The position numbers and the translations under genes are program-made. 41,723 bases of DNA, from positions 1-41,723 of the forward strand of contig JAJVII010000007.1 in the NCBI GenBank assembly GCA_022072085.1, given 5' to 3'. The stretch is from Phycisphaerae bacterium (GTDB lineage: Bacteria; Planctomycetota; Phycisphaerae; JAJVII01). The notes beneath the pieces are model-generated. The model searched no databases. It had not been told where the DNA came from and saw only the letters and a list, made by a program, of their open reading frames with translations. Shown here in pieces: positions 6,027 to 11,108 of this stretch (positions are counted from its first letter, which is position 1; each line of letters begins with the position of its first letter).

Positions 6027-6069
6027 CTTGCGCCATGTTAACGCCTCACTAACACGGCTTGTGGAGAAT
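6027..6069 (+). promoter_or_regulatory. Putative Pho box and -10 element upstream of phoB
   Basis: Direct repeats TTAACGC (6038) and CTAACAC (6049) start exactly 11 bases apart. A degenerate third unit, CTTGCGC, sits one period upstream (6027). An 11-bp period of 7-bp units is the layout of PhoB/PhoP binding sites. Eight bases after the last unit is GAGAAT (6064-6069), a 4/6 match to a sigma70 -10. The promoter before the porin has the same heptamer and the same 8-base spacing. This suggests autoregulation of phoBR under phosphate limitation. The rest of the 236-base gap (5875-6026) shows no supported feature. Confidence 0.55.
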
Positions 6070-6110: not shown

Positions 6111-6800
6111 ATGGCACGCGAAAAGATTCTGGTTGTGGACGATGAGGAAGACATTCTCGAACTGGTGCGCTACAACCTGGCCAAGGATGGCTACCTCGTC
6201 GAGCTGGTCCAGACCGGCGAGAAGGCCCTGGAATCGGTGCGCGAGGAGTTGCCCAACCTCGTGCTGCTCGACCTGATGCTGCCTGGCGTGGACGGGCTGG
6301 AGGTCTGCCGCCAGATACGCGCCGACGAGCGGACGCGCAACTTGCCCATCGTGATGCTGACGGCTAAGGGAGAAGAAGCCGACGTTGTGACCGGTCTGGA
6401 ACTGGGGGCCGACGACTACATTACCAAGCCTTTTGCCCCGCGGGTGCTGCTGGCCCGCACGCGGGCGGTGCTGCGTCGGCGTTCCCGGCAGGCCGCCCCG
6501 ACCGAGGAGGCCTTCACCATCGGCGATCTGACGATCCACCCCGGGCGTCACGAGGTGCGCGTCCGCAACAAGTCGGCGGACCTGACGCACACGGAGTTCC
6601 AGATTCTCGGTCTCCTGGCCCGCAAGCCGGGCTGGGTGTTCACGCGCAACCAGATCGTCAGTTCGGCCCTGGGCGACGACGCTGTGGTCACCGACCGCGC
6701 TGTCGACGTGCACATAGTTTCGATCCGCCGCAAGCTCGGCGTCTGCGGGGACTACATCGAGACCGTCCGGGGCGTCGGCTACCGCATGAAGGACATGTAG
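6111..6800 (+). CDS. phoB: PhoB-type response regulator (OmpR family)
   Basis: A 229-residue two-component response regulator. The receiver domain (1-120) has the acidic pair Asp10/Asp11, the phosphoacceptor Asp54 in LLDLMLPG, Thr84 and Lys106 in DDYITKPF. A winged-helix DNA-binding domain (about 130-229) has the OmpR/PhoB hallmark LTHTEFQILGLLARKPGWVFTR and ends in ETVRGVGYRMKD. The ATG at 6111, preceded by GAGG, fits the family N-terminus. An in-frame ATG at 6069 would add 14 unrelated residues. phoR begins 2 bases after the stop, so the pair is co-transcribed. The Pho-type repeats upstream, the porin and phoU downstream support a phosphate-starvation role over other OmpR-family functions. 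Expected action: when phosphorylated by PhoR, it binds Pho boxes and activates transcription. Confidence 0.9.
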   Translation: MAREKILVVDDEEDILELVRYNLAKDGYLVELVQTGEKALESVREELPNLVLLDLMLPGVDGLEVCRQIRADERTRNLPIVMLTAKGEEADVVTGLELGADDYITKPFAPRVLLARTRAVLRRRSRQAAPTEEAFTIGDLTIHPGRHEVRVRNKSADLTHTEFQILGLLARKPGWVFTRNQIVSSALGDDAVVTDRAVDVHIVSIRRKLGVCGDYIETVRGVGYRMKDM

Positions 6801-6802
6801 CG

Positions 6803-8581
6803 ATGGCCAAGAGGCGCCTGCTCAAGCGCATCTACCTGACCCACCTTCTCGTAATCCTGCTTTGCACGTTGGCGATGGGAGGCTATGCGCTCTACGAACT
6901 GCGGGCGTCCTACATGGAGCAGACTTCCCGCGACCTGGAGGCCCGGGCTCGGCTGGTGCTCGTTCAGGTTGCCGGCCGACTCGACCGGATGGACGAGGCC
7001 CAGCTCACCGCGTTGTGTCACGAGCTGGACAACTCCGCTGACACGCGCATCACCATCATCGACGAGAAAGGCAAGGTGCTTGGCGAGTCCCGCAAGGACC
7101 CCGAGACGATGGACTCGCACTACAATCGCAAGGAAGTCGTCGAGGCCCGGGAGAACGGCCGCGGCCAGTCCGTGCGGCACAGCGACACGCTGGACCGCTG
7201 GCTGATGTACGTCGCCATCCGCCACGACGAGAATGGGCACACATGGTTCATCCGCACCGCCCTGCCCCTGTCGGGCATCTACCACACGATCTGGGGCCTC
7301 TATCTCCGCGTCGCGATCATCGGACTGATCATCTCCCTGCTAGCCGCCGGGCTGGCCCTGATGGTCGCCCGCAAGCTCGGCCGACCGCTGGAGGCCGTCC
7401 GCGACGGCGCTGTGCGGTTCGCCCAGGGGCACTTCATGCCCCACATCCGCGTCCCCGGCCAGGACGAGGTCGGCGAAGTGGCCGAGGCCATGAACCAGAT
7501 GGCCGCCCAGTTGGACGAGAAGATCCGCTCCCTGGCCCGGCAGCGTAACGAGCAGCAGGCGGTGCTGGCCAGCATGGTCGAGGGCGTGGTCGCTGTCGAT
7601 CAGGACGCGCGGGTCATCAGTGTCAACGACGCGGCCGCGGCGCTGATGAACGTCTCCGTGCCGGAGTTGACCGGCCGACCGATCGGCGAGGCCATCCGCA
7701 ACGTCGAGCTGGAGCGGCTGCTGCGGCAGGTGCTCAGCAGCGGCCAGCCGGCCGAGGCGGAAATCGTGATCCACGAAGAAGCGGACCGCATCATGCTGGC
7801 CCACGGCACAGTCCTGGGCGAGGCGGAGGGGGCCGGTCCGCGATTCGGGGCCGTAGCGGTGCTTCACGACGTGACGCAACTGCGGCGGCTGGAGAACATC
7901 CGCCGGGACTTCGTCGCCAACGTCTCACACGAACTCAAGACGCCTGTGACGTCGATCAAGGGCTTCGTCGAGACGCTGCGCGACGGGGCCATCCGCGACC
8001 CCGAGAAGGCCCAGGAATTTCTCTCGATCATGAATCGCCAGGCCGACCGGCTGAACGCGATCATCGAGGACCTGCTCAGCCTGTCCCGCATCGAGCAGGA
8101 GGCCGAGAAGCACGAGATCGAGCTGAAGCCCGGGCAGATTGCGCCGGTCCTTGCCTCTGCCGCCCTGGCCTGCCAGAGCAAGGCCGACGCGAAGTCCATC
8201 CGCATCGCCATCGATGCCGGCCCGGAACCCGAGGCGGCCATCAACCCCCGCCTGCTAGAACAAGCCGTCGTCAATCTGATCGACAACGCCATCAAGTACA
8301 GCAACGCAGGCGGGGCGATTACCGTTGCTGCCCGTTCCGCCAACCGGGACGTCCTGATCGAGGTGGCCGATCAGGGGTGCGGCATCGACGCCGAACATCT
8401 TCCCAGGCTGTTCGAGCGGTTCTACCGCGTCGACAAGGCCCGCAGCCGTAAACTGGGGGGGACCGGCCTGGGACTGGCGATCGTCAAGCACATCGTGCAG
8501 GCCCATCACGGATGGGTAGCGGTGCAGAGCACGCCAGGCCGGGGGAGCACCTTCACCATCCACCTGCCTGCCGGCGAATGA
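6803..8581 (+). CDS. phoR: PhoR-type membrane sensor histidine kinase
   Basis: A 592-residue sensor kinase. TM1 is at about 12-34 and TM2 at about 166-188, enclosing an extracytoplasmic sensor region of about 130 residues. A HAMP domain follows (about 190-243), then a PAS domain (about 250-360, VVAVDQDARVISVNDAAAAL). HisKA carries the phosphorylatable His376 in FVANVSHELKTPVTS. HATPase_c (about 470-590) has the N box (VVNLIDNAIKYS), the G1 box (DQGCGID) and the G2 box (GGTGLGLAIV). The order TM-sensor-TM-HAMP-PAS-HisKA-HATPase is that of long PhoR proteins. Two bases separate it from phoB. Activity would depend on phosphate supply, usually through PhoU and a Pst transporter. PhoU is encoded nearby, but no Pst genes lie in the window. 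Confidence 0.88.
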   Translation: MAKRRLLKRIYLTHLLVILLCTLAMGGYALYELRASYMEQTSRDLEARARLVLVQVAGRLDRMDEAQLTALCHELDNSADTRITIIDEKGKVLGESRKDPETMDSHYNRKEVVEARENGRGQSVRHSDTLDRWLMYVAIRHDENGHTWFIRTALPLSGIYHTIWGLYLRVAIIGLIISLLAAGLALMVARKLGRPLEAVRDGAVRFAQGHFMPHIRVPGQDEVGEVAEAMNQMAAQLDEKIRSLARQRNEQQAVLASMVEGVVAVDQDARVISVNDAAAALMNVSVPELTGRPIGEAIRNVELERLLRQVLSSGQPAEAEIVIHEEADRIMLAHGTVLGEAEGAGPRFGAVAVLHDVTQLRRLENIRRDFVANVSHELKTPVTSIKGFVETLRDGAIRDPEKAQEFLSIMNRQADRLNAIIEDLLSLSRIEQEAEKHEIELKPGQIAPVLASAALACQSKADAKSIRIAIDAGPEPEAAINPRLLEQAVVNLIDNAIKYSNAGGAITVAARSANRDVLIEVADQGCGIDAEHLPRLFERFYRVDKARSRKLGGTGLGLAIVKHIVQAHHGWVAVQSTPGRGSTFTIHLPAGE

Positions 8582-8602: not shown

Positions 8603-8645
8603 CTAATCCATCGCTAATCTATTCCTAACACTGACGCCCTATATT
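8603..8645 (+). promoter_or_regulatory. Putative Pho box (three 11-bp-spaced repeats) and -10 upstream of the porin
   Basis: Three units, CTAATCC (8603), CTAATCT (8614) and CTAACAC (8625), lie in perfect 11-bp register. Eight bases after the third is TATATT (8640-8645), a strong sigma70 -10. No good -35 is present at the normal distance, as expected for a PhoB-activated promoter in which the activator replaces the -35. The last heptamer and the 8-base spacing are the same as upstream of phoB. The transcript would start near 8652 and have a leader of about 130 bases. Confidence 0.65.
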
Positions 8646-8781
8646 CCCACACGCGCGGCAACAAGAGTTCTCATGGACGAGGACCGATGCACACGCAATG
8701 CAATACTCCGTCGCCGGAAACGCCAACCCGCATGGGTCGGCGCATGGGCGATCCATTCACCCCCCAGTTTCAGGAGGCAAC

Positions 8782-10191
8782 ATGGAAACGCAGCGATTTC
8801 TTCGTCTTGTTACATTTCTGCTGGCGGGCACAGCCGCCCTTTCGCCGCTGCGAGCCGCCCCGGAAACGGCCGAGGAGAAGATGGCCCGGCTGGAGAAGCT
8901 GGTCCAGGATCAGCAGCAGCAGATCAACGCGCTGATCCAGCAACAGGCCGTCCGCCGCGACAGTTCGGGGGGGGACTTCAACCAGACGCAACGCGAGTAT
9001 CTCGCTAAGCTCGTCCGTGAAGAACTGGCAAAGAACAAGGAGCTCGTCAGCACGCTGCCCGGCTGGCTTTCGGGCCTCGAGTTCTTCGGCGACCTGCGTG
9101 TTCGCTACGAAGGCATCCTTTACGAGAGCAAGCCCAACTCGACCACCGATCAGGGTCGCAGCCGCGGCCGCTTCCGCCTGCGGTTCGGGTTCAAGAAGGT
9201 GATCAACGACGAGTTCACCGCCGTCTTCCGCTTGGCCAGCGGCGAAGGCCAAAAGAACGAGAAGGGCTACGGCGACGTCGGCACGAGCAACGGCATCTCG
9301 ACGAACCAGACTTTCACCGGGGACTTTACCGAAAAGGGAATCTACATCGACCAAGCCTACATCGAGTATACGCCCCGCTGCCTCCAGAGCTCCGACGGAA
9401 CCGCCAAGTTTGTGGCCGGCAAGCAGCCCAATCCATTCGTCGGCTCTCCGACAGGTCTTATCTGGGACAGCGACCTCAACCCCGAGGGGCTGGCCCAGTT
9501 GTTTACCCGCAATGCCGACGGGCTGGAGTTGTTCGCCGCCCTGGGCGAATTCTTCCTGGAAGAAACCAACAAGACGACGGCCAACGACGTCACGCTGCTG
9601 GCGGCCCAGTTGGGGTTCAAGTATAAGCTGACCCCCAAGGTCGCCTGGCGGATGGCCCTGGCCTACTACTACTTCTGCAACGCCGGCAGCAGCACGGCGC
9701 TGGCCGAGGCCTTCAACAACGGCAACCCGGCTTCGGGGGCGTCGGGCAGCAAGTCGCTTAACGCCCGCCAATTCCACATCGTGGACCTCTACACCGACCT
9801 GACTTTCGCCGATGTGGACGTGTTCAGCCGCAAGATGCCGGTGACCGTCTTCGGCGAGGTTGTCTGGAACAGCGGCGACCACGACGCGGGGGGCAAGGAC
9901 GGCGACAACCTGGCCTTCGAGATCGGCGGCAAGCTGGGCGCCGCCAAGAAGAAGGGCGACTGGGAAGTCCTCTACTCGTTCAAGTACGTCCAGGCAAACG
10001 CCGTCCTCAGCGCCCTGACCGATGGCGACTTCGGCGGGTCCAACCAGTTCGGCCACACGGTCGGGTTCAAGTATGCACTGGCCGATAACGTCTTCCTGGG
10101 CCTGACCGGCATCTTCACCCAGTCGCTGGGGGCGAGGACCGACCCGCACCGTCAGTTGCTCCAGGCCGACCTGGAAGTGAAGTTTAAGTAG
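8782..10191 (+). CDS. Outer-membrane porin with N-terminal coiled coil, probable Pho-regulon member
   Basis: A 469-residue protein with a signal peptide (1-25, cleavage near LRA/APE). A short periplasmic coiled coil follows (about 30-58, Gln/Glu/Lys-rich). The rest is a beta-barrel-like region of alternating strands from FFGDLRVRYEG near residue 100 to the C-terminal LLQADLEVKFK, which ends in an aromatic residue as outer-membrane barrels do. It resembles the putative porin (Porin_5-like) group common in Planctomycetota and Verrucomicrobia. The ATG at 8782 is chosen because AGGAGG (8772-8777) precedes it and the signal peptide begins there. An ATG at 8698 is in frame but lacks both. The Pho-type promoter and the position between phoR and phoU suggest induction under phosphate limitation and uptake of phosphate or other anions. 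OprP-like specificity cannot be shown from sequence. Confidence 0.75.
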   Translation: METQRFLRLVTFLLAGTAALSPLRAAPETAEEKMARLEKLVQDQQQQINALIQQQAVRRDSSGGDFNQTQREYLAKLVREELAKNKELVSTLPGWLSGLEFFGDLRVRYEGILYESKPNSTTDQGRSRGRFRLRFGFKKVINDEFTAVFRLASGEGQKNEKGYGDVGTSNGISTNQTFTGDFTEKGIYIDQAYIEYTPRCLQSSDGTAKFVAGKQPNPFVGSPTGLIWDSDLNPEGLAQLFTRNADGLELFAALGEFFLEETNKTTANDVTLLAAQLGFKYKLTPKVAWRMALAYYYFCNAGSSTALAEAFNNGNPASGASGSKSLNARQFHIVDLYTDLTFADVDVFSRKMPVTVFGEVVWNSGDHDAGGKDGDNLAFEIGGKLGAAKKKGDWEVLYSFKYVQANAVLSALTDGDFGGSNQFGHTVGFKYALADNVFLGLTGIFTQSLGARTDPHRQLLQADLEVKFK

Positions 10192-10216: not shown

Positions 10217-10241
10217 CGGCATTCTGCGTCGCTCGAGGCGC

Positions 10242-10280
10242 GGCGAACACCGGCTACAATACGGGTAGCCAGTGTTCGCC
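10242..10280 (+). repeat. Long inverted repeat between porin and phoU
   Basis: The arms GGCGAACAC-C-GGCTAC (10242-10257) and GTAGCC-A-GTGTTCGCC (10265-10280) pair over 15 bp with a single C/A mismatch and a 7-base loop. This is the strongest hairpin seen in the window. It ends 34 bases before the phoU start and has no T-tail. Possible roles are attenuation of porin read-through into phoU, mRNA processing, or a palindromic protein-binding site. Confidence 0.6.
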
Positions 10281-10314
10281 GTTGCCGGACGGATTTCCCC
10301 ACGAGGAGCGGCTG

Positions 10315-10998
10315 ATGTCCAGTGCACACATGCATCGCGAGATCGAGGGCCTCAAACGCCGAATCCTCACCGTGGGGGCCATGGTCGAACAGGCCATCGC
10401 CCAGGCCATCTCCGCGCTGGCCCGCAACGACGCGGCGCTCTCCCGCAGCGTCATCGAGCACGACAGTGAAGTCGACCGCATGGAGATCGAAGTCGAAGAG
10501 GAGTGCCTCAAGATCCTCGCGCTCTACCAGCCGGTTGCCGGCGACCTGCGATTTGTCATCGCCGTGCTCAAGATGAACAACGACCTGGAGCGTATGGCCG
10601 ACCTGGCGGTCAACATCGCCACGCGAGCCCTGCGGCTGGGCAAGCTCGGCGAAATCCGCCCGCCGGGCGACCTGCCCGAGATGGCCCAGAAGGCCAAGGG
10701 AATGGTCAAGAAGAGCCTGGACGCCCTCGTCCAGTCGGACACGACGCTGGCCCGCGAGGTCTGCGACGCCGACGACATCCTGGACGCCATGCGAAGCGAT
10801 TTCCACACGCGCATCATGGAGCAGATCCGCGAGCATCCCGAACAGGTCGAATCGCTGCTCAACCTGCACGCCGTCACACGCCACCTCGAACGGCTTGGCG
10901 ACATGGCCACGAACGTCGCCGAGGACGTCATCTACATGGTCGACGGCGACATCGTCCGCCACCCTGCCCTGCGCGAGCCGACGAATACGCCGAAATAG
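10315..10998 (+). CDS. phoU: Phosphate signalling regulator PhoU
   Basis: A 227-residue all-helical PhoU protein with the two-fold PhoU repeat. Each half carries the metal-binding E-x3-D-x3-N signature: E92/D96/N100 in LERMADLAVN and E192/D196/N200 in LERLGDMATN. The ATG at 10315 has GAGGAG six bases upstream; an in-frame ATG at 10282 adds an unlikely tail. PhoU normally links the Pst phosphate transporter to PhoR and keeps the kinase silent when phosphate is plentiful. Here it follows the porin rather than pstB, and no pst genes are visible. It may be transcribed from the Pho promoter of the porin, reduced by the two intervening stem-loops. Confidence 0.9.
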   Translation: MSSAHMHREIEGLKRRILTVGAMVEQAIAQAISALARNDAALSRSVIEHDSEVDRMEIEVEEECLKILALYQPVAGDLRFVIAVLKMNNDLERMADLAVNIATRALRLGKLGEIRPPGDLPEMAQKAKGMVKKSLDALVQSDTTLAREVCDADDILDAMRSDFHTRIMEQIREHPEQVESLLNLHAVTRHLERLGDMATNVAEDVIYMVDGDIVRHPALREPTNTPK

Positions 10999-11079: not shown

Positions 11080-11108
11080 TTGATATGGGATAACAACAGT
11101 CCTATATT
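11080..11108 (+). promoter_or_regulatory. Strong sigma70-type promoter of the suf operon overlapped by an IscR type 1-like operator
   Basis: The -35 TTGATA (11080-11085) and the -10 TATATT (11103-11108) are separated by exactly 17 bases. Across them lies a 25-bp imperfect palindrome (11083-11107). It starts ATA and ends TAT, has GA at internal positions 7-8 and CAGTC at 15-19, and its outer 8-bp arms match at 7 of 8 positions. Length and end positions agree with the Escherichia coli IscR type 1 consensus, though the middle matches only in part. The position would allow the Rrf2 protein encoded next to repress its own promoter. The preceding stretch 10999-11079 shows nothing notable. Confidence 0.6.

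Follow-up and report, generated by a model that had tools for sequence, protein, structure and literature searches.

A predicted three-unit Pho box before a Porin_5-family porin gene adjoining phoB and phoR in a Phycisphaerae bacterium

In studied bacteria, phoB and the pst genes are induced by phosphate shortage, and PhoE of Escherichia coli and OprP/OprO of Pseudomonas are Pho-controlled porins. In E. coli, phoB is autoregulated and the Pho box consists of 7-bp direct repeats with 4-bp gaps (CTGTCAT AAAG TTGTCAC at phoA), which replace the −35 element and precede the −10 element, at phoA by 10 bp. The base contacts of E. coli PhoB are made by T194, V197, R201, and R219 (PMC3264566). Cyanobacterial SphR boxes contain at least three 8-bp repeats, CTTAACCT, with 3-bp linkers (PMC1906773). 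A Pho box described for Planctomycetota was not found in the literature searched, which consisted of open-licence papers. The element reported here, from a 41,723-nucleotide stretch of a Phycisphaerae genome (the window), is a predicted Pho box of the known TTAAC type in this phylum. The SphR box is the nearest described operator that we encountered: both have an 11-bp pitch, at least three units, a TTAAC core, and a position upstream of pst genes. They differ in phylum, in the core, which mixes CTAAC and TTAAC in the Phycisphaerae genome, and in the presence of a box at the regulator's own promoter, which is not general in cyanobacteria.

The porin gene (8782–10191, plus strand, as are all window features below) lies downstream of phoB and phoR and upstream of phoU. 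The earlier note on this DNA had described three heptamers in perfect 11-bp register ending eight bases before TATATT, and these were confirmed at exactly those coordinates: CTAATCC (8603–8609), CTAATCT (8614–8620), and CTAACAC (8625–8631) are direct repeats, and the eight bases TGACGCCC separate the last of them from the −10 element TATATT (8640–8645). No −35-like hexamer was present 16–18 bp before TATATT, and a consensus promoter scan returned no promoter pair here, so that the array at a fixed distance from the −10 element takes the place of a −35 element. The predicted transcription start at 8652 fits the position of TATATT. The leader showed nothing unusual in RNA folding, and a ribosome-binding site, AGGAGG, is found at 8772–8777. 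Geometry is shared with the E. coli Pho box in the 7 + 4 bp direct repeats replacing the −35 element before a −10 element, whereas the core is TAACA rather than TGTCA and the distance is 8 bp rather than the 10 bp of phoA; the window box reads CTAAYMN and does not have a CTGTCAT-type core. The phoB promoter (6027–6069), located by inspection, pattern searches, and matrix, carries CTTGCGC at 6027, TTAACGC at 6038, and CTAACAC at 6049, followed after eight bases by GAGAAT (6064–6069). The final heptamer and spacing that the earlier note considered common to the two promoters were thereby borne out, with the same pitch; the first unit and the −10 element of phoB are weak.

Genome-wide specificity was assessed by pattern searches alone, over the source genome (5.49 Mb, 72 contigs) and with reversed controls. 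Such a search, which the earlier note had suggested, singled out the porin, pst, and phoB. With up to one mismatch, YTAAY-N6-YTAAY-N6-YTAACAN matched twice in the whole genome, at the porin and pstS promoters, and never in the reversed controls. The pst match (C23:40978–41005, minus strand) stands directly before pstS-pstC-pstA-pstB and comprises TTAACCG, TTAATCG, and TTAGCAG, then eight bases and TAGGCT. An alternative three-unit pattern with other letters found pst only, since its letters excluded the porin. When the −10 element was included in the three-unit pattern, porin and pst were the only exact matches, three sites including phoB appeared at one mismatch, and 13 matches in all were obtained at two mismatches vs. 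23 in the controls; these loosest matches should not be read as targets because they were no commoner than in the controls. The two-unit pattern with −10 element, allowing up to one mismatch, returned phoB and the porin only, and nothing in the controls. The same element is therefore found before known phosphate genes of this genome, namely phoB and pstSCAB. The earlier statement that the porin, not a Pst transporter, is the adjacent Pho target holds within the window but not beyond it, as pstSCAB on another contig carries the same box. Because of this shared box, and because relatives have porin and pst together behind phoBR, the porin is a predicted additional Pho target, not a replacement for Pst. 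No box was detected at a second PstS-like gene (C22), nor near a second PhoU-domain gene (C3:139007–139582). Two one-mismatch sites, C6:40815 and C64:19822, are followed by no evident phosphate gene and were left out of the list of targets. The latter (C64:19822–19864, minus strand) combines a box with TTTGAT and lies about 60 bp upstream of a short gene for a lipoprotein-like product of unknown role; it could be a further target or a chance match.

Recurrence of the box was examined in 85 non-redundant promoter regions (of phoB, the gene after phoR, and porins) from other genomes of the class, none of them from the source genome. Pairs of [CT]T[ACG]A[CT] at lag 11 numbered 54 vs. 2.7 in shuffles, with a further 28 at lag 22 and 15 at lag 33, while nearly all other lags remained at background. 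Of 34 cases in these regions, 10 had TANNNT 8 bp past the final unit, the highest count among all distances; smaller peaks at 19 and 30 bp correspond to 8 + 11 and 8 + 22. A weight matrix built from other genomes only scored the porin site at 33.4, phoB at 26.6, and pst at 26.2, compared with 10.0 for the next site in the window and a maximum of 16.1 over 20 window shuffles; its sites were initially picked with a source-genome matrix, which makes these scores not fully independent, whereas the lag test is independent. A box-only matrix, in which the −10 element was not used, was applied to the intergenic gaps of relatives. In each of the six Phycisphaerae clusters with this arrangement (L044, L045, L046, L049, L055, and L085), it detected a significant box in the porin–pstS gap; four of these boxes are followed by TANNNT at exactly 8 bp, a feature that had no part in the matrix. 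Given this further box, a single cluster can contain one Pho promoter for the porin and another for pst. In the phoR–porin gap, the box was clear in L049 and L055 and doubtful in L044, and no clear box was detected with the same matrix in L045, L046, and L085, which belong to one related genus. Porins away from phoBR carried a box in four instances, L037 (from the family of the source genome), L038, L054, and L078; of the porins that do not belong to pho clusters, most had none (L039, L042, L043, L048, L053, and L056). An outer-membrane-protein-like gene without Pfam match, located between phoR and pst (L077:2821–4236), is also preceded by a clear three-unit box. A predicted box directly before the porin is thus frequent in the class, not universal. 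Because of its geometry, its genome-wide specificity, its presence at phoB and pst, and its recurrence in other genomes, the element behaves as a Pho box, and the same evidence supports the earlier placement of this porin in the Pho regulon. It would give Phycisphaerae a first computationally derived Pho operator and help to list phosphate-starvation genes in the largely uncultured Planctomycetota.

The porin itself matched a single family, PF16930 (Porin_5; 155.1 bits, gathering cut-off 22), which is without known role and annotated just as ‘putative porin’. Its structure model (mean pLDDT 70.9) consists of a signal helix, a coiled coil at residues 30–91, and 16 predicted strands. It resembles PhoE and OprP/OprO as a 16-strand outer-membrane porin tied to phosphate genes, and differs from OprP/OprO in that it belongs to PF16930 and gave no match to their phosphate-selective family, PF07396. 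Relatives were gathered by PhoR search, as the porin alignment was nowhere sufficiently conserved for a scan; a contig search with the porin alone returned no relatives. The order phoB-phoR-porin-pstS-pstC-pstA-pstB was found in the six Phycisphaerae clusters above, followed by phoU where the sequence extends far enough. The same order, or phoBR followed by a Porin_5-type porin, occurs in Kiritimatiellaceae (L148), Verrucomicrobia (L167), Lentisphaerae (L116 and L142), Elusimicrobia (L176), Omnitrophota (L135), and an unclassified genome (L128). The Pho box before the porin suggests a role of this porin family in phosphate uptake. It is a serious possibility, however, that the porin is Pho-controlled but general, not a phosphate channel: among solved structures, the attachment porin OmpM1 of Veillonella gave the best fold match and general porins, OprP, and PhoE ranked lower, and the missing PF07396 match points the same way. 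Against this reading stands the position between phoR and pstS, which is conserved across several phyla. Also speaking for a phosphate channel are a Porin_O_P protein of OprP/OprO type (L073:3369–4706, E 2.3e-51), which occupies the phoR–pstS slot held by Porin_5 in relatives, and a weak match to OprO by a profile of seven porin relatives (E 0.0025 over 72 positions); the same profile matched a 50 kDa outer-membrane protein at E 1.8e-6. We tentatively propose, at somewhat less than even confidence, that this Porin_5 branch might serve as a dedicated outer-membrane phosphate channel together with Pst in Planctomycetota, Lentisphaerae, Verrucomicrobia, Kiritimatiellaceae, and a few other phyla, and that in Phycisphaerae it might stand under a distinct Pho operator (TAAC core, 8 bp to the −10 element) read by a PhoB without the Arg201 contact of E. 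coli.

The regulator presumed to read the array is encoded at 6111–6800. It is an OmpR-type response regulator whose best NCBIfam model was PhoB (TIGR02154/PRK10161), at 245.5 bits against a cut-off of 296.2; the name PhoB consequently rests on context. The adjacent kinase gene (6803–8581) exceeded the cut-off of the PnpS/PhoR model NF046044 (405.6 vs. 400 bits). At the DNA-contact positions, V197 and R219 are retained in the window PhoB, which differs from E. coli PhoB in carrying A and S at the positions of T194 and R201. These changes would fit the shift of the core from TGTCA to TAACA, and the pairing of an altered recognition helix with an altered operator core is testable. The score below the NCBIfam cut-off would also be compatible with the array being read by another OmpR-family regulator, many of which bind 7-bp repeats with 4-bp gaps (e.g., M. 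tuberculosis PhoP; PMC4832192). This we consider improbable, given that this array also stands before the gene of the regulator itself and before pst, likewise in many relatives, and that the genome holds a single regulator gene at E ≤ 1e-60.

The region 8603–8645 is, in our assessment, very probably a PhoB-activated promoter that drives the porin at phosphate shortage. Low phosphate would lead the PhoR-type kinase to phosphorylate PhoB, which would bind head to tail along the three 7-bp units, spaced 4 bp apart, that substitute for a −35 element, and would bring RNA polymerase to TATATT eight bases downstream, with a start near 8652. The product would be the outer-membrane porin, probably along with PhoU encoded behind it; the porin may admit phosphate, or solutes that carry it, to the periplasm, from where periplasmic PstS, expressed from the boxed pstSCAB operon on another contig, would take phosphate up. 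The sign of regulation is not given by sequence alone, and the box might instead repress the porin at low phosphate. Such repression is very unlikely, as the array occupies the −35 position where no −35-like hexamer is present, and phoB and pst, known in studied bacteria to be induced by phosphate shortage, have promoters of the same layout. That AT-rich repeats in a GC-rich genome fell on an 11-bp pitch by chance is hardly credible, as the earlier note had argued, for although two-mismatch versions of the pattern were no commoner than in reversed controls, the full pattern matched once in the window and in none of 100 dinucleotide shuffles, its only exact genome-wide matches precede the porin and pst, and the array recurs in other genomes.

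Downstream of the porin, phoU (10315–10998; TIGR02135, 208 bits) has no Pho box of its own upstream and is probably read from the porin promoter by co-transcription. A strong hairpin lies between the two genes (10237–10286, with the inverted repeat core at 10243–10279; −38.3 kcal/mol, z −5.25). It is present as a single copy in the genome and is without a T run, and strong hairpins after the porin were also found in some relatives. Possibly, it lowers phoU relative to the porin or shields the porin mRNA. Further downstream, at 11080–11108, a sigma-70-like pair, TTGATA-17-TATATT, precedes the gene for the Rrf2 regulator, the first in a block of SUF iron-sulfur cluster genes.
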